Shown: positions 36,914-53,928 of the stretch, piece by piece
How positions within the stretch are numbered: position 1 is the stretch's first letter
Layout of the letters: the number at the start of each line of letters is the position of its first letter
Source of the DNA: Natronomonas marina
Lineage (GTDB): Archaea > Halobacteriota > Halobacteria > Halobacteriales > Haloarculaceae
Length of the DNA stretch: 64,000 nucleotides
Assembly: GCF_024298905.1 (NCBI RefSeq)
Contig: NZ_CP101154.1
Coordinates: forward strand, 1,426,001-1,490,000
Direction of reading: 5' to 3'
Translations under genes and position numbers: made by a program
The notes under the pieces: generated by a model
Databases searched by the model: none
What the model saw: the letters and a program-made list of their open reading frames with translations, nothing else
What the model was told of the DNA's origin: nothing

Positions 36914-37396
36914 TCATGGCGGATTGCTTGCTGCGTTCAGAGGAGCGACCGATTCGGCGTGGTAGGCAACTCGCCACAGTTTGAGGACTGCCCGAGTGAC
37001 CAGCTTCGCCGGCGATTGGGTGATACAGGAGGCCTCGACCTCTTTCGGGTCGGATGTGGCATTCGGTGGCGGGTGGTAATGCTCGAGCCCGGGGGCGTCG
37101 ACGTACTCACCATCGTGTGGATGTTTGTCCCACCGGAGATCAACTCCGCGTGAATCCGTATAGTGAAACTTGTAGTCGCCTCGTGTCGTCCACTGGACGT
37201 CGATGCGCGCCGTGTCGGCGCCGCAGAGGCCCTCGTCGAAGGTGACTTCGAGCGTTCTGGGGTCGAGATAGTCGTCCAACTCCGCGGATGCGAGCGGTTC
37301 GTTGGCGTTGAACACGTCCCGTATGGCGAGGAGTGCTGGTCGGTCGGTTGCGCCTCTGAGCGAGTGGTCCTCACCCGGTGAACCGTACTTTCCCAT
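36914..37396 (-). CDS. TumE-like small protein (copy 1 of a paired module)
   Basis: A 160-aa protein whose core reads IDVQWTTRGDYKFHYTD, then HPHDGEY, HYHPPPN and a C-terminal helix AKLVTRAVLKLW. The pattern of two strands with Tyr/His and a His-rich loop resembles the TumE (DUF6516) toxin family; this is judged by eye. Copy 2 at 52522 shares QWxxxGDYKxHY, HPPxN and LVTxAVLKxW. It lies 3 bp after the winged-helix gene, so the two are one unit. The N-terminal 60 residues differ from copy 2. Confidence 0.65.
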   Translation of the reverse strand: MGKYGSPGEDHSLRGATDRPALLAIRDVFNANEPLASAELDDYLDPRTLEVTFDEGLCGADTARIDVQWTTRGDYKFHYTDSRGVDLRWDKHPHDGEYVDAPGLEHYHPPPNATSDPKEVEASCITQSPAKLVTRAVLKLWRVAYHAESVAPLNAASNPP

Positions 37397-37399
37397 TGG

Positions 37400-37990
37400 T
37401 TACTGGGCGAGCGTGCTTCCATTCGGTCGGGGGTCGTCGCCGACGAACCGTTCGGCATTGGCGATCGAAAGCGCAGCGTTGGCGAACGCCAGGTTGCGCC
37501 GTGTCGTCTGCCACTCCCGTATCGTCTCGGCATCGATATCTTCGTGGGTTGTGGCCGCCTCGGAGAGGGTTTCGTTCGTCCGGTCGACGAGCAGCTCTTC
37601 CGGCGATTCGACGCCGTATTCGGTCTGGAAGTCGCTGATGCGCTCACGCATTTCCGAGACGCGGGCTACTAACTCATCGGTCGAGACGTGTTCCCGAATA
37701 TCCGCGGCCTGCTCGACGACGAGCGACTCGGGTGACCGCCGGTAGGTCGTGGCACCGTTCTCGCCCGTACCGGTAGTGGCGAACCCCGATTCATCGAGGG
37801 CGTCGAGATGCTTTCGTGCTGTCTTCGGCGAGGTGCGGGCAGCGTCGGCGACGGTGGCCGCGGTGACCGGGTCGTAGGAACGACTGATGACTTCACGGAC
37901 GCGTTCGTACGGAGTGGTCTCCGCTTTCCACTCCGCGCCAACCCTCTCGTTGATATCGTCGAACTCATCGGGGCCGGTGTGATCGGTCAT
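37400..37990 (-). CDS. Winged-helix regulator/antitoxin-like partner (copy 1)
   Basis: A 196-aa protein. Residues 20-90 form a winged helix: EWKAETTPYERVREVISR, then ATVADAARTSPKTARKHLDAL (recognition helix) and a Thr/Gly wing. A coiled-coil-like stretch (110-135) and an all-helical C-terminus with ESPEELLVDRTNE follow. The paralogue at 52995 has the same order and the shared strings EWK..TT..ER and PEELLV. It resembles haloarchaeal HTH proteins listed under DUF7342 (recollection, not searched). A TATA box stands at leaderless distance. Confidence 0.75.
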   Translation of the reverse strand: MTDHTGPDEFDDINERVGAEWKAETTPYERVREVISRSYDPVTAATVADAARTSPKTARKHLDALDESGFATTGTGENGATTYRRSPESLVVEQAADIREHVSTDELVARVSEMRERISDFQTEYGVESPEELLVDRTNETLSEAATTHEDIDAETIREWQTTRRNLAFANAALSIANAERFVGDDPRPNGSTLAQ

Positions 37991-38010
37991 GTGCGCCTTT
38001 CGTGTTGAAG

Positions 38011-38039
38011 TAATATAGGGCTTCCGACAGTACTATATT
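38011..38039 (-). promoter_or_regulatory. TATA box and inverted repeat upstream of copy-1 module
   Basis: CTATATTA (minus strand, 38011-38018) lies 21-28 nt ahead of the ATG at 37990. With AATATAG (38012-38018) and CTATATT (38033-38039) it forms a 7-bp inverted repeat with a 14-bp spacer, a plausible autoregulatory operator. Confidence 0.5.
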
Positions 38040-38143
38040 CCTCCAAACCGGGAGACGGTGTCGCGTCATCGGGAGCGTGTTCGAAGAACGGGCCCTCAAG
38101 CGCGACCCACGACGACAGTCGTCGGCGCACGGAAGAGGGTATT

Positions 38144-38647
38144 TTAGTCCGCCCGATTCCATCGCGTTCGATACCGCGTCCAGGCCCACACGACGGCCGC
38201 AACCGCCGCGGCAACGGCCGTGGGCCAGCGGTCGCTGCTCAGGTAGAGCATGCCGGCCGGCGCCCGGTACGTCGAGACGGGCAGGAGGAACTGGCCGGCG
38301 TAGCCGCTAGGCTTGACGAGCAGGCCGTCCAGAAACAGGTGCGTCGCCGCCCCCAGCGCCACGAGGCCGACCGTCAGCCGACGGTGCTGGCGGGCGACGA
38401 GCAGTCCCGACCCCAGCGCGACCACGACGGTCCCACCGACGGCGTGCAGCGGCGCCCACGAGAAGGGAACCCCGAGTGCGGCCTCGACGTAGGGCGACGG
38501 CACGAGGAGCTTTATCTTCACGAAATCGGGCGACAGCGCGCCGGCCATCACCAGCGTGACGGCTGCGGGACCGACCCGGTCGTAGCGGGCGGCCAAGAGC
38601 GAGCCGACGACATAGCCGACCAGGACGTGGGTCAGGACGTCAGGCAT
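38144..38647 (-). CDS. YdjM-like membrane metal-dependent hydrolase
   Basis: A 167-aa protein with four to five TM segments. The start MPDVLTHVLVGYVVG and the later ATHLFLDGLLVKP give the His/Asp pattern of the YdjM/DUF457 (LexA-regulated membrane hydrolase) family. The substrate is unknown. The gene start overlaps the end of the next upstream gene by 8 bp, so both are co-transcribed. Confidence 0.75.
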   Translation of the reverse strand: MPDVLTHVLVGYVVGSLLAARYDRVGPAAVTLVMAGALSPDFVKIKLLVPSPYVEAALGVPFSWAPLHAVGGTVVVALGSGLLVARQHRRLTVGLVALGAATHLFLDGLLVKPSGYAGQFLLPVSTYRAPAGMLYLSSDRWPTAVAAAVAAVVWAWTRYRTRWNRAD

Positions 38648-39161
38648 CCCCACCACCCCACAGGGCCAGCGGTTCCTCGCGGGGGACGAACGCCAGTCGG
38701 TCGGTGTCGAACCGCCACCGGCGCAGCGTCCGGCCGAGTACCCACAGGCCGGCGACGAAGGAGACACCGTACATGTACCGTATCTCCCAGGGCGCCCGGA
38801 GGATGACCCGCTCGGCAGCCAGCGTCGAGTCGTCTTCGAGCGTGCCGAACGCCGTCGCGTGGTCGCCCACCGAAGCGGGTTGCTCGACGCCCCGAACCGT
38901 CGCAGTGAACGACTCGCCAGTTCCGTACGGCACCTCGATGCGGAGCGGGTCGGTCCCGACGACAGTCCCGCTGAGGGTGACGCGCTCGCCGACGTAGGCG
39001 TCGGGGTCCGGGCCGACGCTGTCCTCGCCGGGGTAGTCCCGCGGTGTCGCCACAGGAGAGAGGGTGCCGGCCCACACGAGCATGCCGCCGAGTGCGACGA
39101 CCAGCACCGCGAGCGCCGCGGCCCTGCGCCACGGTCCGTCCGCCTCCGTCGGATTCGTCAT
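38640..39161 (-). CDS. Membrane protein with OB-like extracytoplasmic domain
   Basis: A 173-aa protein. N-terminal TM (AALAVLVVALGGMLVWAG), then a beta-rich domain with GERVTLSGTVVGTDPLRIEV and SFTATVRGVEQPASVG, like nucleotide-binding OB folds of the NfeD/YdeI kind, then a second TM (MYGVSFVAGLWVLGRT). The start MTNPTEADG is chosen as the first Met before the TM segment. Role unknown; it is coupled to the YdjM-like gene. Confidence 0.7.
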   Translation of the reverse strand: MTNPTEADGPWRRAAALAVLVVALGGMLVWAGTLSPVATPRDYPGEDSVGPDPDAYVGERVTLSGTVVGTDPLRIEVPYGTGESFTATVRGVEQPASVGDHATAFGTLEDDSTLAAERVILRAPWEIRYMYGVSFVAGLWVLGRTLRRWRFDTDRLAFVPREEPLALWGGGDA

Positions 39162-39284
39162 CGGGTCCAGTTCCACAGGGAGACGTGTAACTCCTTCGTC
39201 GTCGGTCGAAGCACGTCGGGAGTCTCGGCCGCCGGCACGGCCGAGCCGACAGGTTGGTAAACCAGGGCGCCCGAGGGGTCGCCA

Positions 39285-39563
39285 ATGGAGACCCGGCGAC
39301 GCCGACGGTTCGTCCACGCGCAGGTGGCGTGGATGCTGACGGCGGCCATCCTGCTCGTGGCGCTGGATTCGCTGTCTTACGAACTGTTCTTCGTCGTCTC
39401 GCTCATCGGCTTTCTGGTCGTCGTCGAGTTGACGGCGCCGGTCGCGGTCTCGCCGCGATGGCGACGCCGGCTTCCGTGGCTCATCGCCGCCGGCCTGCTC
39501 GTCTTCGCGTACGTCGTCGTCAAACGCATCCTCGAGATACTGCCACCGGGGGTGCTTCCATAA
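39285..39563 (+). CDS. Small membrane protein of the MoxR cluster (92 aa)
   Basis: Three hydrophobic segments (about 15-33, 36-54 and 65-84) after a basic start ETRRRRRFVHAQ. The TAATG overlap with the next gene shows translational coupling. In haloarchaeal MoxR/DUF58 clusters a small membrane protein usually stands in this place; the function is unknown. Confidence 0.75.
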   Translation: METRRRRRFVHAQVAWMLTAAILLVALDSLSYELFFVVSLIGFLVVVELTAPVAVSPRWRRRLPWLIAAGLLVFAYVVVKRILEILPPGVLP

Positions 39564-40609
39564 TGAAGCTCGGTGGGTACGACATCGACACGCCACGAGC
39601 GATCCTCGTCGGGTTTGCGATTGCCACCGTCGCCGCCCTCGTGTTCGGCGGGGCAACCTCGGTCGCGGCGTTCGGCTCGTTCAACCCCTCCTGGGAGGGG
39701 ACGACCGACATCCGGGAGATAGCCGATCAGGCCGGCGCCGAGACGGTCGTCTCGACGAACACCTCCGAGTACGAGGCGTACGGCGAGGACACGGTCGCGG
39801 TCGTGCTGGCGCCCGATGAACCCTACACGGCAAAAGAGCTCGAGCGGATCGAGGGGTTCCTCGAACGCGGAGGCACGTTACTTGTGGCCGACCGCGACGG
39901 GACCGGCAACGCGTTACTCGAGGCGCTCGGCGCCGACGCCCGCCTCGAGGGTGCGTTGCTACGTGACGACAGAAACTACTATCGAGCCCCGGCACTCCCG
40001 AGGGCAACGACGGTCGCCGAACACCCGCTGACAGAGGGGGTCAACTCGCTGACGCTCAACTACGGAACCAGCGTCGAGGCGGGCAACGCGACCGTGCTCG
40101 TCTCGAGTTCCGACTTCGGCTATCTAGACCGGAACGGCAACGGTGAGGTGGACGACGACGAGGAGCTCGACACCTATCCGGTGGCGACCACGGAGAACGT
40201 CTCTGGTGGCCGTGTGGTCGTCGTCAGCGACCCGAGCGCCTTCATCAACGTCATGGCCGAGCAGCCGGGCAACCGCCAGTTCGCCCGGAACCTCTTTTCC
40301 GAGGACGATACCGTCCTGGTCGATGCCTCCCACAGCGGTGGCGTGCCGCCGCTAATCTCGGTGCTGCTTGCCATCCGTGGCTCACCGATGCTCCAGTTCG
40401 GGACCGTCGGTCTCGGCCTGCTCGTAGTGTTCGTCTGGCAACGGGGCGTTTTCGACCGAACGGACGACGAGGCGTTCGACCGACGACCTACCCCGGAGCT
40501 TTTAGCCGAGTCGGCGGCTGACAGCCACCCGGAGTTCGACCGCGGGCGAATCCAGCGACTCATGAAAGGGATTAAATCTATCAACTCCGAACGAGGGGAC
40601 GATGAGTAG
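39563..40609 (+). CDS. DUF4350 membrane protein
   Basis: A 348-aa protein with an N-terminal TM (AILVGFAIATVAALVFG), an extracytoplasmic GATase-like domain of the DUF4350 kind (50-250; ELERIEGFLERGGTLLVAD and RVVVVSDPSAFIN) and a C-terminal TM (LQFGTVGLGLLVVFVWQ) with a cytoplasmic tail. A calcium-type loop LDRNGNGEVDDDEE is present. DUF4350 proteins occur next to MoxR and DUF58 genes. The start is fixed by the TAATG overlap with the 92-aa gene, and the stop overlaps moxR by 8 bp. Confidence 0.85.
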   Translation: MKLGGYDIDTPRAILVGFAIATVAALVFGGATSVAAFGSFNPSWEGTTDIREIADQAGAETVVSTNTSEYEAYGEDTVAVVLAPDEPYTAKELERIEGFLERGGTLLVADRDGTGNALLEALGADARLEGALLRDDRNYYRAPALPRATTVAEHPLTEGVNSLTLNYGTSVEAGNATVLVSSSDFGYLDRNGNGEVDDDEELDTYPVATTENVSGGRVVVVSDPSAFINVMAEQPGNRQFARNLFSEDDTVLVDASHSGGVPPLISVLLAIRGSPMLQFGTVGLGLLVVFVWQRGVFDRTDDEAFDRRPTPELLAESAADSHPEFDRGRIQRLMKGIKSINSERGDDE

Positions 40610-41648
40610 CCCCGCAGACATGTACCAGTCGGTCCGTGATGAGGTCGGAAAGGTTCTCATCGGGCAGGAGGACCTCATCAAGGGATTGACAATCGCTTCG
40701 CTCACCGGCGGACACGTACTGCTCGAGGGTGTCCCGGGAATCGCCAAGACCACGGCAGCGAGACTGTACGCGCGGGCGATCGGATTGGATTATTCTCGCA
40801 TCCAGATGACGCCGGACCTGCTGCCGGCGGACATTACCGGCACGCGCATTTATCGACAGCAGACCGGCGAGTTCGAAACTGAGCGGGGCCCGGTGTTCGC
40901 CAACGTCGTACTGGCCGACGAGATCAACCGTGCGACGCCGAAGACCCAGAGCGCACTGCTGGAATCGATGCAGGAGGGGCAGGTGACGATCGACGGCGAA
41001 GAGATGTCGCTGCCCACGCCGTTTCTGGTGATAGCGACACAGAACCCCGTCGAGATGGACGGCGTGTTCTCCCTTCCGGAAGCCCAGCGGGACCGGTTCC
41101 AGCTGAAGATAACTGTCGGCACGCCCGGACGCGACGACGAGCGGGCGATTCTCGATCGGTTCGACGACAATCCCAATCTCGGGCCCGACGACATCGACAG
41201 CGTCGTCGATACGCGAACGATAATGCAGTGTCGGGAGGCCGTTTCAGACGTCCACGCCGCGGGGGCTGTAAAGGAGTACGCCCTCGATATAGCAGAGGCG
41301 ACACGGGACCACGACGCCACCGAACACGGCGCCTCGCCGCGCGCGTCGATCGCCTTCATCGACGCCGGGAAGGGCCTCGCAGCTATCAACGGGCGCGACT
41401 ACGTCATTCCCGACGACCTGAAAGATCTGGCGTACCAGGTGCTGTCCCACCGGCTCGTCCTCGACGCCGACGCTAACCTGCGGAACGTGGACCCGGACGA
41501 CGTCATCGAAGACGTCCTCGACCGTGTCGAACCACCGACGGACGGGTTCACACCGGACCCCGATAGCGTCGAGGTCGACGGCGAGTCCACGGAGGTCGCC
41601 ACGGACGGGTCGACAACCACGGTGTCCCAGCCCGCCGACGACGCCTGA
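40602..41648 (+). CDS. MoxR-family AAA+ ATPase
   Basis: A 348-aa MoxR ATPase with Walker A LEGVPGIAKTTAA, Walker B VVLADEINRATPKTQSALLE, sensor 1 IATQNPVEMDG and arginine-finger region LPEAQRDRF. MoxR proteins act as chaperones that mature partner complexes, and here the DUF58 (vWA-like) partner is encoded on the opposite strand 1.5 kb away. The C-terminal ~40 residues are an acidic tail. It is the last gene of the three-gene plus-strand unit. Confidence 0.92.
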   Translation: MSSPADMYQSVRDEVGKVLIGQEDLIKGLTIASLTGGHVLLEGVPGIAKTTAARLYARAIGLDYSRIQMTPDLLPADITGTRIYRQQTGEFETERGPVFANVVLADEINRATPKTQSALLESMQEGQVTIDGEEMSLPTPFLVIATQNPVEMDGVFSLPEAQRDRFQLKITVGTPGRDDERAILDRFDDNPNLGPDDIDSVVDTRTIMQCREAVSDVHAAGAVKEYALDIAEATRDHDATEHGASPRASIAFIDAGKGLAAINGRDYVIPDDLKDLAYQVLSHRLVLDADANLRNVDPDDVIEDVLDRVEPPTDGFTPDPDSVEVDGESTEVATDGSTTTVSQPADDA

Positions 41649-41660
41649 GGCGTCGCCCGG

Positions 41661-42554
41661 TCAGTCTTCGCTGTCGGTCGTGTTGTCCGCCTCCCACCGG
41701 CAGGTGACGAGATACGCCGACTCGTCAGTCGATTCTACCTCGAGCTCGACCGGTTCGTCGGTCACGTCGGCCAACGCGGTGGCCAACAGCGACGCGACCG
41801 GGTGATCCAGACGGTCGACCGGGCCGTAGGCACTGTTGGTCACGCGGACGGTCGCGCGGCCCGCGTCGTCGATGTCCGGGTCGGCACTGTCGACCAGTTC
41901 GAACTGTTCGACGAGTGCCTCACAGACGGCCTCAATCAGGGCCGCTGGCGATTCCGGGACCGGTGAGGTGACCTCGACGAACTCCCGGCGGAGCGAGTCG
42001 CCGGACGGCCGGAGCGACAGGCCACGGTGAGCCGACGTGACGACGAAGGTATCCCGGAGGTCGGTCGTGGTGGGCACACCGCCGGTCTCCAGCGGCTGTT
42101 CCGGGAGGTACAGCCGGACGGCGGGGTCGCCATCGACGGGCACGTAGGCCTTCGTATCGGAGAGCTCGAGTTCGCCCGCGATGGATTCGAGATTGGTTGC
42201 GAGCGTGGCGTAGACCGCCTCGCCGACGCTGGCGGCGACGAACCGCTCGGGCGTGAGATAGTAGGTGAGCAACCCGCCGAAGAGGCCGGTCGCACCCAGC
42301 ACGACCAGCAGGTCACGGAGACCCGGTATCAGAACGGCGCCGAGGAGGCCGACCCCGCCGAGGAATGCCATGCCGAGCGCCGTTCGCCGATAGCTCGTCC
42401 GGCGGGCCGCCGACAGCTCCTGGCGGAGCCGTTCGTTTTCGTCCTCGAGCGCCTCGAGACGTACCAGAAGCGACTCCTCGTCGGTCCCGGTATCGTCGGC
42501 CGTGTCGGTGTCGGCCGCTGTGTCGTCGTCGACCATCTCGACATCGGCGCTCAT
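41661..42554 (-). CDS. Membrane-associated haloarchaeal protein with coiled coil
   Basis: A 297-aa protein: an acidic tail (1-28), a coiled coil VRLEALEDENERLRQELSAA (30-50), two TM segments (60-100; LGGVGLLGAVLIPGL and VVLGATGLFGGLLTYYL) and a soluble C-terminal domain of ~200 residues with strand-rich segments. No motif of known catalysis. It is the last gene of the minus-strand DUF58 unit (ATGA overlap with the preceding gene) and converges with moxR. Confidence 0.75.
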   Translation of the reverse strand: MSADVEMVDDDTAADTDTADDTGTDEESLLVRLEALEDENERLRQELSAARRTSYRRTALGMAFLGGVGLLGAVLIPGLRDLLVVLGATGLFGGLLTYYLTPERFVAASVGEAVYATLATNLESIAGELELSDTKAYVPVDGDPAVRLYLPEQPLETGGVPTTTDLRDTFVVTSAHRGLSLRPSGDSLRREFVEVTSPVPESPAALIEAVCEALVEQFELVDSADPDIDDAGRATVRVTNSAYGPVDRLDHPVASLLATALADVTDEPVELEVESTDESAYLVTCRWEADNTTDSED

Positions 42555-43021
42555 TCGGGGTCACCTGCCAGCCCGAGTGCGACCCGTTCGTATCTGTGGA
42601 TGCCGTAGACGGCACCGGCAGTGGTAGCGAGCATCAGGAAGCCGGTGGTCTCCGTGCCCGTCAGCGCCCGGTCGGCGTACAGGAGTACGGCGGTGGTGAG
42701 TGCGGCGACCGCCAGCGCTGCCGCCCCGGCCGCGTAGGTCCGGTCGACGGTGACGTCCGTTATCAGCAGGAGGACGAGTGCGGCCTGTGCAATCGGCGTC
42801 GTCGTCGGTCCACCATCGAGTCCGACCACGAGGCCGACCTGCCCGAGGACGAACGCATACGGCGTTCCGGCGGCAATCCACAGGACGGCAACGGCTGCAG
42901 CGACGCCAGCACCGAGAATCCCGCCCTCGAAGACCATCGCAGCGCCGGTCGCGAGGATAACGACTCCAACGAGTGCGTCACCTTTCGTCCAGCGGCCGCG
43001 AGCGAGCACGCCTTCTGCCAT
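42551..43021 (-). CDS. Small polytopic membrane protein of the DUF58 unit
   Basis: A 156-aa protein with five to six hydrophobic segments (GDALVGVVILATGAAMVFEG, then VAAAVAVLWIAAG and others). It resembles the membrane protein that usually follows DUF58 genes in haloarchaea (often given as DUF7519; from memory). It lies between DUF58 and the coiled-coil protein, and overlaps the latter by 4 bp. Confidence 0.75.
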   Translation of the reverse strand: MAEGVLARGRWTKGDALVGVVILATGAAMVFEGGILGAGVAAAVAVLWIAAGTPYAFVLGQVGLVVGLDGGPTTTPIAQAALVLLLITDVTVDRTYAAGAAALAVAALTTAVLLYADRALTGTETTGFLMLATTAGAVYGIHRYERVALGLAGDPE

Positions 43022-43130
43022 CGTCCTCTATCTGGAGTACCGGATTCAAAGCCGTGTTGGTCCGTCACCGCCCGGACCGCCTGCTGGTCCCCGGCCGGGG
43101 AGGGATCTCGGGGCGTTTCGGCGTAGTCGC

Positions 43131-44540
43131 TCAGGCCGCTTCGGTGCGTTTGGCCTTCCGGAGGCGTTCGCTGCGCCCGCCAGGGCCGACCTCGAAGGCC
43201 TCGACACCGCCCAACCGGTCCAGTTCGCGCCGGAACGTCTCGAATTCGGTGTAGCGCTCGTAGGCGGCTTCGAGATCGGCCAGGGAACCGGGTTCGTGGA
43301 GCACGGTCGGCGCCAGAAAGACGAGAACGCTGTCGGAGGCGTCGCGGGCCGCTTCCACCACTTCTCGAATCTCGCGACGGTTGGTGTCGTCCGTAAAGAG
43401 GACGATCCGGCCACCGGCGTTGTCTCCGAGCGCCTGGACGGCGCTGCGGAGCGGCGAACGGTCCGGCGGGAGCGGTCGACGTTCGTCGACGCAGGCCGTG
43501 AGCGTCTCGATGAAGACGCTGTCCTCGGCGTCGACGGCGACCAGGCGCCCGGCCAGCGACGACCGGCTATCGAGCCGTCGAGGCGGGCGGACCTCGCCTT
43601 CGGTCGGCCCGGTGGTCAGCAGTCGGCGACGAACGCCCTCGTAGGCGGCCGAGTCGTTCGACGGTCGTTGCAGCGAGGCGATGCCCTCGTCGTCGATGAC
43701 GGTGATACCGACGGGGTCCTCGTGGGACCGAAACAGCGACAGGAGACCGAGTGCAACCTCTCTGAGATAATCGAATTCGGTCTCGCCGTCCGGCCCGGTC
43801 GCGGTCGTCGAGCGGGCGTCGACGATGAAGGCCGTTTCGATGGCCGACTGGGCCTCGAACTCGCGGACGTACGTTTCCGTGAGTCGCGCGGTCGCGTTCC
43901 AGTCGATCCGTCCCGCGTTCTCGCCGGGGGTGTACTCGCGGAGTTCGGCAGGCTCGATGCCCTCGCTGCGGCGCTCGTCGGCTTGTTGCCCACCCAACGA
44001 GGCCACCCGTTCGCCACCAGCGCCGACGGTCAGGTCGTCCGGCTGGCGTGGTTCGACCGTCAGTGTCAGCGACGGCCCCCGGTCGAAACGCTCGGTGAAC
44101 AGCCCGGCGCCGTCGACGACGGTGATCTCCGGCGATGGAACGGTAAATCGCCCGGCCACCGGCGTCTCGACGACGACGCTCGTCATTGGCCCATCGTCGG
44201 TGAGGCGAATGGCCGCCACGTCGCCGTCGCCCGTCGTCGAGAGTCCCGCTGGGAGTCGTAGCCGGGCGGTCACTGCAGCCGAGGCGTCGATCTGCTGGCC
44301 AGCGAACCCGAGTTCGGTTCCAGCGTCGACGGGGACTCGCGTGTTCGGCGTCGACAGTTCGAGTTCGAGCTTGTCGTCAACGTCCGTGACGGTAACGAGA
44401 AAGGCGTGTGCGGAGGCGACGAGCCACCCGCCCAGGGTGGCGACCCCGACGAGCAGCGTCGGCTGGTCGAACAGCCACGCCGATACTGCAAGCAGGACGG
44501 TCAAACCGACGACTGCCCAGTACCGGCGCGTCGGGCGCAT
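43131..44540 (-). CDS. DUF58 domain protein (vWA-like partner of MoxR)
   Basis: A 469-aa protein: two N-terminal TM segments (YWAVVGLTVLLAVSAWLF and LVGVATLGGWLVASAHAFL), a beta-rich region with the family-typical RPP-like repeats, the DUF58 motif REYTPGENAGRIDWNATARL around residues 225-245, and a vWA-like C-terminal domain with FIVDARST. It acts at the membrane with MoxR. I chose the start MRPTRRYW (44540); the open frame runs 40 codons farther without sense. It is the first gene of the minus-strand unit. Confidence 0.88.
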   Translation of the reverse strand: MRPTRRYWAVVGLTVLLAVSAWLFDQPTLLVGVATLGGWLVASAHAFLVTVTDVDDKLELELSTPNTRVPVDAGTELGFAGQQIDASAAVTARLRLPAGLSTTGDGDVAAIRLTDDGPMTSVVVETPVAGRFTVPSPEITVVDGAGLFTERFDRGPSLTLTVEPRQPDDLTVGAGGERVASLGGQQADERRSEGIEPAELREYTPGENAGRIDWNATARLTETYVREFEAQSAIETAFIVDARSTTATGPDGETEFDYLREVALGLLSLFRSHEDPVGITVIDDEGIASLQRPSNDSAAYEGVRRRLLTTGPTEGEVRPPRRLDSRSSLAGRLVAVDAEDSVFIETLTACVDERRPLPPDRSPLRSAVQALGDNAGGRIVLFTDDTNRREIREVVEAARDASDSVLVFLAPTVLHEPGSLADLEAAYERYTEFETFRRELDRLGGVEAFEVGPGGRSERLRKAKRTEAA

Positions 44541-44653
44541 GCATCCGGTGTGGGAGCCACCACAGTTCAACTCACCGGTCGATGGTGGTCGATTCTGACT
44601 GTTGGGAAAAGCGGGGTTTTTATTCCGTCGTGGTCTGAGGTTCCGTAACAACC

Positions 44654-46783: not shown

Positions 46784-46911
46784 CAGAGAGCGCGCGAAAG
46801 GCCGTTCATCGGGAATAACCGTCGATCCGTCCCGTCGGCCTTCGACGATCGGATGACCGTCCCGCCGACAACGAGGAGACTTATTTGCCCTCCCCGTGAT
46901 ACCCCGCTACG

Positions 46912-48426
46912 ATGTCTGACACGGGGCTGCGACCGGCCCAACTCGAGACGGCGCTACCGGACCCGGTCGACGCCGACAACGTCGTGTACGATCCCTCGCC
47001 CGAACGGCTCCGGGAGTTCTCGTCGGACCTGGAGACGACGACGGAGTTCGGCTCGCCCGCATACGTCAGCGAGCAGCGCTCCCGGTGTGCCGACCGGACG
47101 AAGAACGCCATCGACGACGAGTTCGACGCGGCCGACCACGAGCACGTCGAGACGGCCCTCGAGTACGCTCGCACCGAGGAGATGGTGTGTCTCGACCGCC
47201 AGGTGGGGCGGCACGCCGAGCACGCCTACTGCTGTCGGTACTACGTGCCCCGCGAGTACGGCCGCATCGCGCTCGGGGTGGCGAAGCTGTTCGAGCCGGC
47301 ACCCGAGGGTGCCGACCCGGACTTCCTGACGGTGCAGGTGCCCGACCACGAGGAGATAGCCATCCGCGTGCTGCCCGACGAGGGCATCACCGCGGTGCTC
47401 GGCAGCGACTACACCGGCGAGGCCAAGAAGTCCTTCCTCCGACTGTTCATGCGCCGCGCCAAGGAAGCCGGTGGCCTGGGCCTGCACGCCGGCTCCAAGC
47501 GCGTCCGGTTGCAGGGCGAGGACGGCGACAGCCGGACGGTCGGCCAGCTATTCCTGGGCCTGTCGGCGACCGGCAAGTCGACGCTGACGGCCCACGGACT
47601 CTGGCTGGACGACCCCGAAAACGCCGTCATGCTGCAGGACGACGTCTGTGCGCTGCTGCCCGACGGGACCGTCGCCGGCAGCGAGGGCAACGGCCTCTAC
47701 ATCAAGACCATCGGGCTGGACCGCGACGAACAGCCCGCACTGTACGACGCCGCTACCCACGAGTCGGCGATACTGGAGAACGTCGACGTCGACGAGGACG
47801 GCACCGTCGACTTCGACAGCGACGCACACACGACGAACGGGCGGGCGGTCGTGCTCCGGGAACACCTCGCGTCGGCCGACGCGGACATCGACCTCGGGTC
47901 GGTCGACCAGGTGTTCTTCATCACGCGCAACCCGGCGATGCCGCCGGTGGCGAAACTGTCGCCCGACGAGGCCGCCGCCGCCTTCATGCTGGGCGAGTCC
48001 ATCCAGACCAGCGCGGGCGACCCCTCGGCGGCCGGCGAGTCCATCCGGGTCGTCGGCACCAACCCCTTCATCGTCGGCCCAGAGGGCGAGGAGGGCAACC
48101 GGTTCCGCGACCTCATCGCGGATCTGGAGGTCGACTGTTTCGTCCTCAACACCGGCTACGTCGGCGATAACGCGAAGGACGTCGGCGTCGAGGACTCGGT
48201 GACGATCCTGCGGGAACTCGCCCGCGGGCGCGTCGACTGGACCGACGACGAGACGACGGGGCTGACGGTGCCCGACGACGTGCCGGGGATGGACATCGGC
48301 GCTTTCGATCTCATCCACCACGCCGAGGACCCCGACAGAATGTTGCGGGAGTTGCGCGCCGAACGACGGGCGTACCTGCGCGAGTTCGTGGAGCTAGACG
48401 AGTCCATCGTCGACGCGGTGTACTGA
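46912..48426 (+). CDS. pckA: Phosphoenolpyruvate carboxykinase (ATP)
   Basis: A 504-aa ATP-type PEPCK, which converts oxaloacetate to phosphoenolpyruvate in gluconeogenesis. The kinase P-loop GLSATGKSTLT, the metal site MLQDDV, AGSEGNGLYIKT and the C-terminal FVLNTGYVGD are present, with GRAVV and the RNPAMPPVAKLSP loop. The N-terminal region LHAGSKR holds substrate residues. The usual ATP enzymes have ~530 residues, so the length is normal. It is transcribed alone; a hairpin follows 36 bp after the stop. Confidence 0.9.
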   Translation: MSDTGLRPAQLETALPDPVDADNVVYDPSPERLREFSSDLETTTEFGSPAYVSEQRSRCADRTKNAIDDEFDAADHEHVETALEYARTEEMVCLDRQVGRHAEHAYCCRYYVPREYGRIALGVAKLFEPAPEGADPDFLTVQVPDHEEIAIRVLPDEGITAVLGSDYTGEAKKSFLRLFMRRAKEAGGLGLHAGSKRVRLQGEDGDSRTVGQLFLGLSATGKSTLTAHGLWLDDPENAVMLQDDVCALLPDGTVAGSEGNGLYIKTIGLDRDEQPALYDAATHESAILENVDVDEDGTVDFDSDAHTTNGRAVVLREHLASADADIDLGSVDQVFFITRNPAMPPVAKLSPDEAAAAFMLGESIQTSAGDPSAAGESIRVVGTNPFIVGPEGEEGNRFRDLIADLEVDCFVLNTGYVGDNAKDVGVEDSVTILRELARGRVDWTDDETTGLTVPDDVPGMDIGAFDLIHHAEDPDRMLRELRAERRAYLREFVELDESIVDAVY

Positions 48427-48450
48427 ACAGTTCTCCCGGGGCGGCTCGCA

Positions 48451-48489
48451 CTTGACCTCCTCCCACCCCTGAAGGGGTGGGCTTTCGCC
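48451..48489. repeat. Solo right-end-like hairpin of the tnpB type
   Basis: CTTGACCTCCTCCCACCCCT-GA-AGGGGTGGG: a perfect 9-bp stem with a 2-nt GA loop, preceded by ACTTGACCTCCTCCC, which differs in one base from the right end of the TnpB element at 18706. No tnpB is near. It may be a transposition or recombination relic, or a bidirectional terminator between convergent pckA and the CPBP gene. Confidence 0.65.
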
Positions 48490-48520
48490 TTGCTACCGCT
48501 GTAACGGTCGTGTCCGTGTG

Positions 48521-49399
48521 TTAGGCTCCCGTTTTCCCTTCGATGTACCTCGTTCCCGGGATTTCCCCGCGAGCGAGTGATTCTCGCCCGAAGTACGCCA
48601 CGATAGCGACGACGACGAGCAGTGTGACCGCAAGCTGCGTAACAGTGACCGTTGCAACGGCGGTTTCGTCGATGACTCCCTCGACGACGATGGACTCCGG
48701 GGGCAGCGGAAGGAGTACGTCCGCGGTGTTCACCATCGCGTGGAGGACCATCACGATCAGTACGCTGCCCGTGCCGTTGTAGGCCCACGCGAGGATGACC
48801 GACAGCAGGACGATGCTGACGAACCAGCCGACCTGATTGACGACGGTGAAACCGGAGTGGGGCGTGATGGGGATGACGAAATAGGGGAGGTGCCAGACGG
48901 CCCAGACAACGCCGACGACGAGACTCGCCGGTAGTGCGTCGTACCGGTCGTTCAGGTGGGGTTGTGCGAACCCACGCCAGCCCGGCTCCTCGTTCAATCC
49001 GCCGCTGACCGTGAGACCGAACACGAAGATGACGGCGATCAAAACGGGGGATTGGAAGGGCTGACCGAGGTCGACCGGACCGCCGATAGCCCAGAGGACG
49101 ACCGTGGTAACCGCCACGATAGCGACCGGTACTCCGAAAGCGGCGACCCACCAGAACCAGCCGACCCGCCACCGAACGATCTGTTTCGCCCACGCTTTGA
49201 CGTCGTCACCCCGCAACCACGTCACTGCCGCCGCACTCACCGGTGGTCCGAAACTACCGATGTAGATGAGGATCCACGGGGTCCACCCTTCCTCCATGAA
49301 CGCGGCAGGGGCGGAGATCACCCAGGTGAAGGCGTAAGCACCCACGACGAAGGCAGCAACGGGGTGCTCGTCTACCCAGGAGGATACGGTTCCCGACAT
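48521..49399 (-). CDS. CPBP-family intramembrane metalloprotease
   Basis: A 292-aa protein with about eight TM segments. The CPBP/Rce1-type motifs are present: EEPGWRGF (catalytic Glu pair and Arg), HLPYF (His) and VMVLHAMVN (His). Members cleave prenylated or leader peptides within the membrane, or give immunity to bacteriocin-like peptides. The gene is alone, with the solo hairpin beyond its stop. The start MSGTVSSW is the only sensible Met. Confidence 0.88.
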   Translation of the reverse strand: MSGTVSSWVDEHPVAAFVVGAYAFTWVISAPAAFMEEGWTPWILIYIGSFGPPVSAAAVTWLRGDDVKAWAKQIVRWRVGWFWWVAAFGVPVAIVAVTTVVLWAIGGPVDLGQPFQSPVLIAVIFVFGLTVSGGLNEEPGWRGFAQPHLNDRYDALPASLVVGVVWAVWHLPYFVIPITPHSGFTVVNQVGWFVSIVLLSVILAWAYNGTGSVLIVMVLHAMVNTADVLLPLPPESIVVEGVIDETAVATVTVTQLAVTLLVVVAIVAYFGRESLARGEIPGTRYIEGKTGA

Positions 49400-49441
49400 G
49401 GGCCGTGATACGCCGGGCGACGCTGATAACTATGTATGTCG

Positions 49442-49468
49442 TGTTATGGTTTTATCTGCCGCATAACA
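49442..49468. repeat. 7-bp inverted repeat TGTTATG/CATAACA
   Basis: TGTTATG (49442-49448) and CATAACA (49462-49468) with a 13-nt spacer, 43 bp before the CPBP start on its promoter side and in the 287-bp gap ahead of the flavodoxin gene. It may be an operator. Confidence 0.4.
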
Positions 49469-49686
49469 GCTTCGAATTCGAGAAAACAGTCCGGTATAAC
49501 GGCGGAGTACAGCGGATTGGCGGCTGAAGTCTCGAACGCCGGGAGATCACCTCGAAACGACGGCGGCGAGTGGAACGACCGAAGGCGATTCGGCCTCGTC
49601 GCCGTCGTGACGAACGCATCTCGGGTCGTTCTCCCGTTTCGAGAACCGGACGCAGGCTTACTTCGACCGGCACAGTACGTCCCGCC

Positions 49687-50274
49687 ATGGCTCGGTTTCT
49701 CGTGTTGTTCGGGACGGGCGAGGGACAGACGCGTACGGTCGCAGAACGGATCGAAGCGACGCTTACGGCTCGCGGCCACGACGTCGAGACGGTCGACGTG
49801 GACGAGCGTCCCGCGTTCGACGTCGAGACGTTCGACGCCGTCCTTATCGGGTCGTCGATCCACGTCGGAAAGCACCACGCGGGCATCGACGAGTTCGTTG
49901 GAACGAACCGGGAGGCGTTGAACGCGCGTCCGACCGCGTTCTTTCAGGTGTCGCTGTCGTCGGCGGTCGACGACCCCGAACGGCGGGCCGAGGCGGCACG
50001 ATACGTCGACGACCTCCTCGAAGAGTCGGACTGGCGTCCCGACCGGATCGGCCTGTTCGGCGGCGCGTTGCGCTACTCGAAGTACGGCTTCCTCAAGCGG
50101 CTGCTGCTCAAGCGAATCGCCAGAGATGCGACGGGCGACGTCGACACGTCCCGGGACTACGAGTACACCGACTGGACCGAAGTCGAGGCGTTCGCGGAGG
50201 ACTTCGCCGCGTTCGTCGAGGGTCGACTCGGGACCGACGACCCGCCGGCACACGAGACGGGGCGGACGGAGTGA
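49687..50274 (+). CDS. Flavodoxin-domain protein (HemG-like)
   Basis: A 195-aa protein with the flavodoxin FMN phosphate loop LVLFGTGEGQTRTVAERI, the AVLIGSSIHVGKHH segment and LFGGALRYSKYGFLKR, as in the flavodoxin-like protoporphyrinogen oxidase HemG. In haem synthesis HemG oxidises protoporphyrinogen IX; many archaeal homologues are only called flavodoxin. The start ATG at 49687 gives MARFLVLFG. It stands alone. Confidence 0.85.
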   Translation: MARFLVLFGTGEGQTRTVAERIEATLTARGHDVETVDVDERPAFDVETFDAVLIGSSIHVGKHHAGIDEFVGTNREALNARPTAFFQVSLSSAVDDPERRAEAARYVDDLLEESDWRPDRIGLFGGALRYSKYGFLKRLLLKRIARDATGDVDTSRDYEYTDWTEVEAFAEDFAAFVEGRLGTDDPPAHETGRTE

Positions 50275-50539
50275 GCGAGCGAACTCGTCCGAATCGGGTC
50301 TTGATACAATCGTCGGCACACTACCGATCCTAACGCTCGCCGGTAGCTAGAAGCAAATTCACTGTTGATCTGCAGATAGCTGGGGGCGGTCACCGACAAC
50401 TTCCGCACCGACGTGCGACACATCGTCCCTTTGTTCGAGTTCTTCAGGTACTCGATTTCTGGCCCTTCGCTTGCCCGCACTTTCACTTTCACTCCGGACT
50501 AGGCTCGCCCCTTTATTCCCGGGACGCGTCGTCTCTCGT

Positions 50540-50704
50540 ATGTCGACGAACACCCGCCGAGCGACCACGGAGCCGACGCACAACGGCGTTCTCGAGGTCA
50601 GCGAACTGCCCACCGAACGCGTCCAGCGATACGCCCTGGAAGCCGAAACCGCCTACCTCGAACGGAAGGGCGGCCGAACCTTCCTCGTCACCGACGATGT
50701 CTGA
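50540..50704 (+). CDS. Small haloarchaeal protein (54 aa), unknown
   Basis: A 54-aa frame from ATG 50540: STNTRRATTEPTHNGV then ELPTERVQRYALEAETAYLE and RKGGRTFLVTDDV. The amphipathic helix and the strand-like end look like a small DNA-binding or ribbon-type protein. Codon use is like that of its neighbours. A short G-rich patch lies upstream, but I see no clear TATA box. Confidence 0.5.
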   Translation: MSTNTRRATTEPTHNGVLEVSELPTERVQRYALEAETAYLERKGGRTFLVTDDV

Positions 50705-50784
50705 CGCACACCTGAACCCTGACGGATAGCCACCGGTTTTCTCATCGATGACCGATGACCGATACCCGATGGTGAGCGGCAAGC

Positions 50785-50812
50785 CTTTATTACGGAGAAT
50801 TGCATAATATTA
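50785..50812 (+). promoter_or_regulatory. Promoter and TAATATTA palindrome of the wHTH/MazF-like pair
   Basis: CTTTATTA at ~50785-50792 is a TATA-like box about 27 nt ahead of the ATG at 50816. The perfect 8-bp palindrome TAATATTA (50805-50812) lies just before the start and may be the operator for autoregulation. Confidence 0.5.
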
Positions 50813-50815
50813 CAC

Positions 50816-51133
50816 ATGCCAATCAGTATCGACCGTTTCGACGAGGACCCGCCCGACGCCCTCGACTTCCAGGAGGGGAGTCAGCCGTATCGGGTCCTCC
50901 AGTTCCTCGCCGAAAACGACGAGCAAGCCTTCACGCAAACGGAACTCCACGAGGCAACGGGAATCAAGCGTGGAAGCGTCGGCGCCGTTCTGTCCCGGCT
51001 CGAGGACCGCGGACTCGTCCGCCACAAGGGACGGTACTGGGCTATCGGTATCGACGACCGGCTGGCATCGTACGCGGCACAGACGAAGGCGAGTTCGGAC
51101 TCGATGTCCGACGACTACTACGGTGAAGAATGA
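50816..51133 (+). CDS. Winged-helix antitoxin-like protein
   Basis: A 105-aa MarR-like winged helix: PYRVLQFLAENDEQAFTQTE, then LHEATGIKRGSVGAVLSRLE (recognition helix) and LVRHKGRYWAIG (wing), with a flexible acidic tail ending DDYYGEE. It overlaps the next gene by 4 bp (ATGA). The coupling to a MazF-like protein makes an antitoxin/repressor role likely; most MazF partners are RHH or AbrB proteins, so a wHTH partner is less common. Confidence 0.75.
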   Translation: MPISIDRFDEDPPDALDFQEGSQPYRVLQFLAENDEQAFTQTELHEATGIKRGSVGAVLSRLEDRGLVRHKGRYWAIGIDDRLASYAAQTKASSDSMSDDYYGEE

Positions 51134-51468
51134 CGACCGTGTACGATAGGGGCGATGTAGTGAAAGGACCCGATTTGTTCGCCGATCACGACTACCGACC
51201 GTATGTATGTCTCAGCGATAGTACGCATCCGTTCAGCGACGAGGAAGCCGTTTACGCGGCAGCCACGACGACCCAACGAGACTTCGCGGTACGTATTTCC
51301 GAGAAGGACTTCAAAACCGGCGGATTGCCCCGTGAAACGTTCGTCAACCCTTGGACTGTCGTAACTATCCGGCACGCGGATATTCAGTATAGAGAAGGTG
51401 AGCTAATCCAGGGGACGACCGAAGAGATCGCATCGGAGACAGCCGGCTACCTCGGCGTTCGAAACTGA
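51130..51468 (+). CDS. PemK/MazF-like toxin
   Basis: A 112-aa SH3-like protein: YDRGDVVKGPDLF, RPYVCLSDSTHPF, then strand FAVRISEKDFKTGGLPRETF and a C-terminal VNPWTVVTIRHADIQ. This order fits the MazF/PemK family: N-terminal GDVV, middle RPxVxLS and late SWVxxxxIxxI-like patterns. The assignment is by pattern only. It would cleave mRNA. The start overlaps the wHTH gene. Confidence 0.65.
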   Translation: MTTVYDRGDVVKGPDLFADHDYRPYVCLSDSTHPFSDEEAVYAAATTTQRDFAVRISEKDFKTGGLPRETFVNPWTVVTIRHADIQYREGELIQGTTEEIASETAGYLGVRN

Positions 51469-51517
51469 GCGCTCGGGAACGCGTGCGTTTTTGGAGGGCG
51501 CCCCGAAATCGTCTTCC

Positions 51518-52216
51518 ATGCACGGACTCGTCCCGGCCGCCGGTCGCGGCACCCGCCTCCGTCCGCTCACCGACGAGCAGCCGAAGGGCCTCGTCGACGT
51601 GGGCGACAAGCCACTCCTCGAACACGTCTTCGAGACGCTCGAACCCCACGTCGAGGCCTACGTCGTTGTCATCGGCTACCGGGGCGGCCAGATACGCGAC
51701 CGCTTCGGCGAGGCCCTCGACGGTCGGCCCATCTCCTACGTCGAACAGCCCGATGCGCGCGGCCTCGCCGACGCCGTCCATCGGGCCGAATCGCTCGTCG
51801 ATGGCCCGTTTCTCCAGTTGAACGGCGACAACGTGCTCCGGGGCAACGTTGGTGAGGTGCTGGACCGACACCGGGAGCGCGAGGCGGACGCGACGCTGCT
51901 CGTCGACCGCGTCTCCGAGGAGCGGGCACGGCGCGGTGGCGTCCTCGAACTCGACGGCGACGAGGTGGTCGACCTCGTCGAGAAGCCCGCCGAGCCACCG
52001 TCTCGCCTGGCGACGACGGGCTGCTTCGCCTTCTCGCCGCGTATCTTCGAGGCCTGTCGTGCCATCGAACCCTCCGAACGCGGGGAGTACGAACTCACGG
52101 ACGCGGTGCGGTGGCTGCTGGAGCGCGACGGCACCGTCGAGACGGTCCGCTTCGGCGGCTGGCGGGTGAACGTGAACACGGCAGAAGATATCGACCGCGC
52201 GGAGGTGCGGCTGTGA
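51518..52216 (+). CDS. Sugar-phosphate nucleotidyltransferase
   Basis: A 232-aa protein of the glucose-1-phosphate thymidylyl/uridylyltransferase type. The signature GLVPAAGRGTRLRPLTDEQPKG is at the N-terminus, then LQLNGDNV (metal Asp), VEKPAEPP and a VNVNTAEDIDRAE end. It is shorter than fused bacterial versions because it has no C-terminal hexapeptide domain. It would make NDP-sugars for glycans. The ATG at 51518 starts MHGLVPAAG. Confidence 0.88.
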   Translation: MHGLVPAAGRGTRLRPLTDEQPKGLVDVGDKPLLEHVFETLEPHVEAYVVVIGYRGGQIRDRFGEALDGRPISYVEQPDARGLADAVHRAESLVDGPFLQLNGDNVLRGNVGEVLDRHREREADATLLVDRVSEERARRGGVLELDGDEVVDLVEKPAEPPSRLATTGCFAFSPRIFEACRAIEPSERGEYELTDAVRWLLERDGTVETVRFGGWRVNVNTAEDIDRAEVRL

Positions 52217-52491
52217 GCGACGATATCCAGGCCGACGCTCAGGCGCTGTACGAACACCTGGCCGCGACCGCAGAGCGCCCCGTCGAGCGGTCGGCGAGTC
52301 GCCTGCTCGGCGAGGCCGAAGCCGTCGCCGACGACATGCGGGGCTGTGAGGTTGAGGTTATCGAGCAGCGGGCAGCCGTAGTACTCGAGTTGCTGGACGA
52401 GGTCGACCAGACGGGTGACGATGTGGCGGCGAATCACGTCGCCAGTGCCAGAGAGCTGGCGGCCCATCTGGCAGGCGGCACTGCAGCCTGA
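52213..52491 (+). CDS. Small helical protein coupled to nucleotidyltransferase (92 aa)
   Basis: A 92-aa acidic, wholly helical protein from GTG 52213 (GTGA overlap with the preceding stop): DIQADAQALYEHLAATAER, then LLGEAEAVADDM and VIEQRAAVVLELLDEVDQTG. No cysteine or catalytic motif. Because it is coupled to the nucleotidyltransferase it may be an associated subunit. Family unknown. Confidence 0.65.
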   Translation: MSDDIQADAQALYEHLAATAERPVERSASRLLGEAEAVADDMRGCEVEVIEQRAAVVLELLDEVDQTGDDVAANHVASARELAAHLAGGTAA

Positions 52492-52521
52492 GCACTACGA
52501 GGGTGTCGTAGAGTTCCTAGA

Positions 52522-52995
52522 CTACGGCAAGCCATTCTGCGCGTTCACCAAGTTCTTATCACCGTTCTCGACCGCTTTCCACCACGTCTTCAGTACAGCA
52601 ATCGTGACAAGGCTAGGTGGTTGTTCAATCCCGATACAGGATTGTTGGTGTTCGCCGAGATTGCTTGGCGGATGAAAATGCCGTACTGGCGTATTGGTGG
52701 TTCCATTCGTTGCTTCGCGCCCGAACCTGAATTCCAGCCCGTCTTCCCGATAGTGGTATTTGTAGTCTCCGTTCTCCCACCACTGAATATCAAAATACCC
52801 ACCCTGCTCGTGGATTCCGGGGGTGACAGTAACCCGTGCCGCTCTGGGGGTTTCACCGTCTCGGTGTTTGAACGGTTGACCTTTCCGATACCGGAATCGG
52901 ACGTCGACAACTCCTCTGTCGAGTTGTCGGCGCATCCGCTCTACGCTCTCATCGATCGCCCCCGAATCGATCGGAGAGCCGTTCCCCATCCCCAT
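52522..52995 (-). CDS. TumE-like small protein (copy 2 of a paired module)
   Basis: A 157-aa protein with GYFDIQWWENGDYKYHYRED, then FRFGRE, RHFHPPSN and LVTIAVLKTWWKA, homologous by eye with copy 1 at 36914. Its N-terminal part (residues 20-60; RMRRQLDRGVVDVRFRYRKG) is basic and different from copy 1. The ATG overlaps the stop of the upstream winged-helix gene (TAATG, 1 bp). The pairing suggests toxin and antitoxin; the direction is unproved. Confidence 0.65.
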   Translation of the reverse strand: MGMGNGSPIDSGAIDESVERMRRQLDRGVVDVRFRYRKGQPFKHRDGETPRAARVTVTPGIHEQGGYFDIQWWENGDYKYHYREDGLEFRFGREATNGTTNTPVRHFHPPSNLGEHQQSCIGIEQPPSLVTIAVLKTWWKAVENGDKNLVNAQNGLP

Positions 52996-53675
52996 TACTG
53001 GAGCGAGGGATGGTTGCGATCGGGGGGCGTGGTCTGATCACCCGACCGTTTGTCCCTCGATTCCGTTACGGTATATGCGTGCTCTATCGCCTCTTTGAGA
53101 TGGTATGCGGCTCTGAGGTGGCTGAGTTCTCGTTCTGCTGTCCGCCAGTGTGAGATGTCGTCGAGTTCATTTCGGTCGAGTTCCGTGTCTGAAACTAGGA
53201 GCTCCTCTGGATCGTTTGCGTCATATTTGGCTTTGTACCCTGCGAGCTCTCGTTTCACTCGCTGGATTTGATCGACAAGCGTTTCGCTACCAGCGAGCTG
53301 TTTAACCTGTTTGAGGAGATGCCACTCGGGGTCTCGCTCGTACAGCTTTCCGGAGTCCGTCTGGTGACTTCTCACGGTGCCTTCTTCGGCAAGCTTGTTG
53401 AGCGTGGTTCTGGCTTTTGTTTCTGAGACCAGCGCTGTGTCTGCGACATCGCCCGCGGATTTCGGAGTCGTCGTTCTGTTGATTACCATTCGAATTCGCT
53501 CGTCCGCAGTAGTGTCTTTTTTCCACTCTGCGGCTGCGAAGTCATCGATGTCGTCGAAGTCACCATCATCAACAGTGAACGGGTCAATATCATCCACGGT
53601 TACCGGTTCGTCCGGTAGTTCCTCTTTGGTGGGGAACTCGTCGGGGCCATCAGGAGATAGTGGCTCGTCAGACAT
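52995..53675 (-). CDS. Winged-helix regulator/antitoxin-like partner (copy 2)
   Basis: About 226 aa from ATG 53675. An acidic leader (1-55; DDIDPFTVDDGDFDDIDD) precedes the winged helix EWKKDTTADERIRMVINR and VADTALVSETKARTTLNKLAEE, a coiled-coil segment VDQIQRVKRELAGYKAKY, and NDPEELLVSDTELDRNEL. The same order and the PEELLV string occur in copy 1 at 37400. I chose the start MSDEPLSPD because a TATA box stands 27-35 nt upstream. Confidence 0.75.
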   Translation of the reverse strand: MSDEPLSPDGPDEFPTKEELPDEPVTVDDIDPFTVDDGDFDDIDDFAAAEWKKDTTADERIRMVINRTTTPKSAGDVADTALVSETKARTTLNKLAEEGTVRSHQTDSGKLYERDPEWHLLKQVKQLAGSETLVDQIQRVKRELAGYKAKYDANDPEELLVSDTELDRNELDDISHWRTAERELSHLRAAYHLKEAIEHAYTVTESRDKRSGDQTTPPDRNHPSLQ

Positions 53676-53701
53676 ACACTGCGCTATGTCTTCAGCACAC
53701 A

Positions 53702-53710
53702 TATATTTTA
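53702..53710 (-). promoter_or_regulatory. TATA box of copy-2 module
   Basis: AAAATATAT (minus strand) ~31 nt ahead of the ATG at 53675. A second AATATATG stands about 19 bp further upstream, so the two could be a direct-repeat operator or an alternative promoter. Confidence 0.5.
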
Positions 53711-53928
53711 CTGGCTTGCATATATTGGATACGGGTTTTGATATCGATGGTATGAGAATGAGATACTCCATATTTCACGGTGGAATTCACCCATTTCAAT
53801 GAGTGAAACTACATCTCAGGTGCTTATCTAACGAGATCAGTCGGCAGAGTCATCTGAAAACACCTGTACTTACCGACCCGCGGCTTGCCCAGTGGGGGCA
53901 TGAAACAAATCGAAAACTCCCTCGACCG

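Follow-up and report, generated by a model that had tools for sequence, protein, structure and literature searches.

The stretch of DNA analyzed here, called the window below, comprises 64,000 nucleotides (positions 1426001–1490000) of contig NZ_CP101154.1 of the haloarchaeon Natronomonas marina, whose 4.0-Mb genome consists of two contigs. The window contains two minus-strand gene pairs, with 15 kb between them, each made up of a regulator gene followed by a gene for a small effector; all four open reading frames (ORFs) are open. Coordinates are given in Table 1. In pair 1 a gap of 3 bp separates the end of regulator 1 (37400) from the start of effector 1 (37396), and in pair 2 a single base, 52995, is common to both genes (1-bp overlap). 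For regulator 2 a longer in-frame ORF reaches 53771; the start at 53675 agrees with the position of the promoter repeat in nine relatives. An initial annotation, made from the letters of this DNA alone, had described two homologous modules of the same gene order and spacing, and its coordinates, gap and overlap are all borne out. Single BLASTP comparisons confirm the homology of both components, with 31% identity over 160 columns for the regulators (E = 7e-20) and 31% over 149 columns for the effectors (E = 3e-16), and most of the motifs it had quoted can be seen in these alignments.

Table 1. Location of the two regulator–effector pairs and their promoter regions within the window.
Feature	Position	Strand	Length, basis or remark
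Regulator 1: DUF7342 winged-helix protein, candidate antitoxin/autorepressor	37400..37990	-	196 aa; PF24033, AlphaFold2 model, Foldseek
Effector 1: TumE-like protein, candidate toxin	36914..37396	-	160 aa; sub-threshold PF20126, AlphaFold2 model
Pair 1 promoter region	37991..38060	-	inverted repeat GGAATATAG-N14-CTATATTAC, dyad kept in related loci
Regulator 2: DUF7342 winged-helix protein	52995..53675	-	226 aa; PF24033
Effector 2: TumE-like family member, candidate toxin	52522..52995	-	157 aa; 31% identity to effector 1
Pair 2 promoter region	53676..53745	-	imperfect inverted repeat CCAATATAT-N13-ATATATGTG, 7/9 positions

Both regulators are over-threshold members of DUF7342 (PF24033, gathering cut-off 31.6 bits), scoring 104 bits (E = 9.6e-30) for regulator 1 and 83.6 bits (E = 1.8e-23) for regulator 2, in agreement with the winged-helix partner proposed initially. 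DUF7342 is a family of unknown function, and the antitoxin-repressor role that we propose for it comes from the present analysis. In the AlphaFold2 model of regulator 1 (mean predicted local distance difference test score, pLDDT, of 85), a winged helix-turn-helix (HTH) domain is followed by long C-terminal helices. The predicted fold resembles MarR/SlyA-type winged-helix repressors, and MarR-type regulators make up most of the 50 matches listed by Foldseek; it differs from them in the long C-terminal helices, and the best Foldseek E value is only 2e-3. Matches of the regulators to NCBIfam are all far below cut-off, and those to PHROGs are weak HTH matches only.

The effectors are likely distant relatives of TumE (PF20126, also known as DUF6516; gathering cut-off 23.4 bits). 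Effector 1 matches this family below the cut-off (19.9 bits, E = 7.7e-4), effector 2 has no Pfam match at E ≤ 1, and a homologue with 47% identity to effector 1 (G043:C1:1300963-1301172) passes the curated cut-off with 23.7 bits. Sorting of 137 regulator-paired effectors by motif gave a group A of 76, which includes both window effectors, a group B of 50, and 11 unsorted sequences; groups A and B are homologous according to hhalign (97.2%, E = 3.6e-11). Of the 34 group A effectors sampled, which include the two of the window, 19 match TumE at E ≤ 1 (best E = 1.3e-4). TumE is the commonest match of the group, the four other families being matched by at most 6 of the 34 each; these profiles do not place the effectors in an unrelated housekeeping family. 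For group B, 2 of 32 effectors matched TumE (best E = 2.2e-4), and six other families were matched by one member each. Profile alignment with hhalign gave scores of 26.4 for group A and 20.3 for group B against TumE, compared to at most 17.95 and 15.07, respectively, for 30 column-shuffled controls. The TumE link drawn in the initial annotation is upheld by these results, and because the scores of the window effectors are under the gathering cut-off, we class them as TumE-like rather than as PF20126 members. Neither window effector has an NCBIfam match, and PHROGs searches with these two and two group B effectors returned none.

Group A shares the core W......Y..HY......R[WFY][DG].H....H.HPPP, and group B shares GWH.D..H..LG..H.Q. 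Five residues of group A (W69, R88, H106, H108, and W141 in effector 1 numbering) are invariant in 34 of 34 representatives. Effector 2 keeps the Arg and the HxH pair and has Glu at the position of H92, which is His in 27 and Glu in 7 of the 34. The TumE consensus from 31 loci, kY...yg...g.tilRyDN.h...g.H.rH, has its His pair as HxxH, in contrast to HxH in group A. Built from 43 sequences, the AlphaFold2 model of effector 1 (mean pLDDT 77, predicted template modelling score 0.72) consists of a helix at residues 19–32, five strands, and a helix at residues 129–147, with the His-rich stretch 94–110 poorly modelled (pLDDT < 50). This predicted fold agrees loosely with the published description of TumE, in which a pair of helices packs on an antiparallel sheet of seven strands (PMC10584680). 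No convincing relatives were found in the PDB by sequence, no viral model matched the effector model in Foldseek at E ≤ 0.001, and VIA-align gave no row at Z 8 or more. The initial annotation had also noted that the N-terminal parts of the two effectors differ, which they do, and had likened them to variable targeting parts, which is not supported: they align loosely within the family, and residues 19–91 of effector 1, most of them predicted with high confidence, belong to the first half of one and the same fold. They therefore do not look like an exchangeable N-terminal targeting module, and that reading was rejected.

Ubiquitin-conjugating (E2) enzymes carry an HPN motif and an active-site Cys, which the HPPxN motif and a nearby Cys of the effector resemble, and E2 enzymes account for most of the 50 PDB matches listed by Foldseek. 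That the effector is an E2-like conjugation protein is nevertheless extremely improbable, and we rejected it: the structural matches are not significant (best E = 0.41, with a template modelling score of ~0.3), E2 is outranked by capping protein in VIA-align, and only 28 of the 34 group A members retain the Cys.

Conserved adjacency of the two genes, for which the initial annotation had suggested a survey, was found both within this genome and across haloarchaea. N. marina has six single-domain DUF7342 genes over the cut-off, and all six have a small ORF of one effector superfamily directly downstream; profile searches assign group B effectors to the genes at C1:306594 and C2:141940 and group A effectors to the other four. 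A seventh place, C1:366846, passes the DUF7342 cut-off only when neighboring stretches are summed. Among the genomes of the class that were sampled, 69 of 79 contain PF24033 at E ≤ 1e-8 (copy number per genome, 0 to 17), and at E ≤ 1e-4 relatives of effector 1 occur in 184 and those of effector 2 in 122 of 242 genomes. A search of 246 genomes of the phylum with one profile (A3) matched 35, every one labelled as this genome or as a member of its genus, family, or order. The 12 genomes listed as sharing the phylum alone gave no match, and a further 191 genomes without a match are absent from the listing.

For the survey itself, regulator loci comprised 30 returned by the PF24033 search and 60 regions picked by hand among the matches listed, with the effector matches in view, so that the selection was not blind. 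The full set of loci, those from this genome and those fetched by effector included, contains 174 distinct regulator matches, one of which lies too near a locus end, leaving 173 that were scored. An effector-profile match lies directly downstream of 137 of these and is missing from 36, including all 14 sub-cut-off HTH genes of this genome, which serve as a negative control (0 of 14). In loci fetched from other genomes by PF24033, 75 of 97 regulators are paired and 22 are unpaired, one of the latter being a weak 74-bit match. When loci were fetched by effector instead, a same-strand regulator lies 5' of the effector in 58 of 59, the exception being L116. The genes of a pair are within 30 bp of each other in 134 of 137 cases, most commonly at +3 (47), -1 (21), or -4 bp (17), as counted by a script that takes the ATG or GTG nearest the regulator stop and so favors small gaps. 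Partner sequences have diverged in parallel: the correlation of regulator and effector distances is r = 0.93 over 134 pairs, with a maximum of 0.08 in 999 permutations, and holds separately for group A (0.94, 75 pairs) and group B (0.95, 50 pairs).

Among 40 named haloarchaeal loci, 34 were scored as pairs by the script, and L209, L240, and L241 are also pairs by coordinates. The loci L218, L229, and L236 start too near the effector to be judged; 36 of the 37 judgeable loci are pairs, since the pair counted for L242 is a neighbor of the matched effector, itself fused to a TFIIB-like fragment. At this last locus (L242:4451-5276, Halomicrococcus gelatinilyticus), a zinc-ribbon N-terminus recognized by eye as TFIIB-like continues in frame into an effector C-terminal core, probably as a product of recombination. 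At another locus, L231 of Natronococcus sp. A-GB7, the effector gene is a decaying copy with an interrupting stop codon. Unpaired regulators such as those of L159, L158, and L140 could be decayed modules or stand-alone repressors.

Each pair is preceded by an inverted repeat, which ends 19 bp before the ATG of regulator 1 (right arm) and 22 bp before that of regulator 2. An AT-rich promoter box pointed out in the initial annotation turned out to be one arm of this repeat, kept in relatives, and the right arm of pair 1 may be the TATA element. A generic repeat finder with a 12-nt minimum did not flag the dyad, which emerged from comparison of homologues. For pair 1 the set comprised the 18 of 40 named loci that passed the start-finding rule, plus the window (19 promoters); its mean best repeat score is 7.95 of 9, compared to at most 6.84 in 200 composition-preserving shuffles. 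Pair 2 and nine relatives have a dyad unlike that of pair 1, with a mean score of 8.0 vs. at most 6.9 in shuffles and with perfect arms in some relatives (CACATATAT-N13-ATATATGTG in L065). The two arms also co-vary in subfamily 1, that of pair 1, where AGTATA occurs with CTATACT in four loci and AATATA with CTATATT or CTATGTT in others. With arms chosen per sequence, a choice that favors the result, own arms score 7.53 vs. 6.20 for cross pairings (reached in 0 of 5000 permutations). With arms fixed by one alignment, the own-arm score is 7.42 of 9, attained by 1 of 5000 permutations, and pairing each arm with that of a different sequence gives 6.86; sliding the right arm by 1–4 columns lowers the score to 3.63 or less. 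Judged from sequence, the conserved repeats are candidate autoregulatory operators, a feature of type II toxin–antitoxin systems.

Evidence of mobility comes from the flanks of pair 1 and from plasmids. Pair 1 lies between an ATP-binding cassette (ABC) ATPase gene and a YdjM gene, which are 1251 bp apart in the window. A YdjM homologue is present in 11 others of 25 relative genomes, and in five congeners (L271–L275) the two genes are adjacent, separated by -29 to +103 bp as determined by a simple stop search, which amounts to an empty site. These five genomes are drafts of 72–88% completeness, with both genes on one contig in each; in the other six genomes with YdjM, no ABC gene was seen near it. 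In L277 (G459:C24), from another family, a different regulator–effector pair stands beside YdjM in another orientation relative to that gene, and the YdjM neighborhood is possibly an insertion hot spot. The empty site applies to pair 1 only. For pair 2 the comparison covers the nucleotidyltransferase flank, where the pair was not found in up to 1.5 kb beside the nucleotidyltransferase gene at 19 other loci (11 at 61–77% and 8 at 43–53% identity, two cut by contig ends). Low G+C content also speaks for mobility, with 62.5% for pair 1 and 54.6% for pair 2 compared to 66.7% for the window.

Effector 1 matched 65 plasmid records; the 40 matches listed are all haloarchaeal, with one plasmid appearing twice. 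They include pNRC200 of Halobacterium salinarum NRC-1 as well as plasmid PHS2 of strain R1; in these records the effector gene carries the label “hypothetical protein” and the adjacent regulator the label “Rrf2 family”. No relatives were found in IMG/VR contigs with effector 2, an alignment of effector 1, regulator 2, or a classical TumE as query, and two effector queries found none among phage records. A viral origin was rejected on these searches, which are weak evidence as the seeds find mainly close relatives.

About 1 kb from pair 2, on the plus strand, a MarR_2-type HTH gene (50816–51133) overlaps by 4 bp a gene for a 112-amino-acid protein (51130–51468) that has no Pfam match. This HTH/small-protein combination is a candidate toxin–antitoxin-like unit in its own right, and it was not found next to the nucleotidyltransferase gene at the 19 related loci that were read.

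Toxin–antitoxin units often act in defense, and a further HTH/small-protein pair so near pair 2 (50816–51468) would suit a reading in which the regulator–effector pairs form an anti-virus abortive-infection system, that is, a toxin–antitoxin unit retained against phages. We consider this quite improbable. PADLOC matched neither effector nor regulator 2, it matched regulator 1 only weakly, as it did one group B regulator, consistent with a shared HTH fold, and the phage and viral searches above found no relatives with the queries tried. The initial annotation had left the choice between a toxin–antitoxin and a defense role; the former is the best inference, and the latter has no direct support from PADLOC.

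The window pairs can be compared with the TumE–TumA systems described in PMC10584680. According to that study, tested pairs were toxic in Escherichia coli and neutralized by the partner, one of them inhibited translation, TumE occurs with diverse partners, and most clusters have the partner before the toxin. The window pairs share this order, as well as a small effector predicted to be alpha+beta, a core broadly of the form Y..HY...R[WYF][DG]...H..H, and the organization as a two-gene operon with a DNA-binding-type partner (in TumE–TumA often a DNA-binding protein). They differ in that their effectors score below the TumE cut-off and are ~160 amino acids long, vs. mostly 77–157 and typically near 100 for the haloarchaeal TumE proteins read, and in that the partner is DUF7342. 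In 30 of 31 classical haloarchaeal TumE loci, an HVO_A0114-type HTH gene lies downstream, the reverse of the order in the window pairs; three of the 31 also contain a DUF7342-like ORF. N. marina itself has two classical TumE genes elsewhere, each followed by an HVO_A0114-type HTH gene. At G014:C3:2471809-2473177 (L053, L194), a DUF7342 gene without an effector lies ~0.7 kb from a classical TumE–HVO_A0114 pair. We found no paper on DUF7342, HVO_A0114, or VNG_RS11785 in the open-access library searched. The present analysis adds DUF7342 as a partner, two effector groups most of whose members score below profile thresholds, dyads at the promoters, and an empty site.

The homology of the pairs, their gene order, the family-wide adjacency, the parallel divergence of the partners, the conservation of promoter dyads, and the lack of pair 1 at the corresponding site of five congeners were all observed computationally. 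The pairs are probably mobile, autoregulated type II toxin–antitoxin modules that combine a TumE-like toxin with a DUF7342 antitoxin-repressor, and their anatomy is of this kind. From this we infer how such a module might work. The DUF7342 protein, as a dimer, would bind its own promoter at the inverted repeat and so repress the operon, and it would hold the effector inactive, probably through its C-terminal helices. By analogy with TumE, the freed effector would stop protein synthesis, perhaps as a ribonuclease using the invariant Arg88, His106, and His108 (effector 1 numbering). The modules would spread on plasmids and by chromosomal insertion, and the two subfamilies seen here would have different operator sequences.

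Several results weigh against this interpretation. Both window effectors fall short of the TumE cut-off, and the one examined family member that passes exceeds it by 0.3 bit; hhalign probabilities against TumE are low (20.8% for group A and 3.1% for group B), and structural comparison of the effector model, by Foldseek with the PDB and viral models and by VIA-align, gave nothing significant. The 22 of 97 regulators without a downstream effector indicate that the regulator can stand alone, and correlated divergence is expected from co-inheritance of any operon. As to the dyads, the shuffles control for nothing beyond base composition, close relatives supply many of the 19 promoters, such kinship inflates the permutation result, and the fixed-register difference is smaller than the per-sequence one.

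Some of these points would suit a non-toxic effector that acts as a sensor or co-repressor, binding the DUF7342 repressor and tuning this and perhaps other promoters. Tight pairing, correlated divergence, and promoter dyads are all compatible with such a role, as are the lack of a significant PDB match for the effector fold and the stand-alone regulators. We think it unlikely, as TumE is the commonest family match in group A and TumE proteins that were tested are toxic (PMC10584680), and as the plasmid copies and the empty site of pair 1 are more readily explained by a selfish module than by host regulation.

There is about an even chance that DUF7342 with a TumE-like effector ranks among the most widespread unrecognized toxin–antitoxin families of haloarchaea. 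If so, the family would have two effector groups largely invisible to Pfam, repressors with subfamily-specific operators, and copies on pNRC200 and PHS2. If the toxin–antitoxin interpretation is right, it would give a function to DUF7342, a domain found in most haloarchaea sampled, and would extend the recently defined TumE superfamily to sub-threshold effectors with a new partner. It would also offer a route to how toxin–antitoxin modules shape haloarchaeal plasmids and chromosomes, for which laboratory strains of Haloferax volcanii and Halobacterium salinarum are available.

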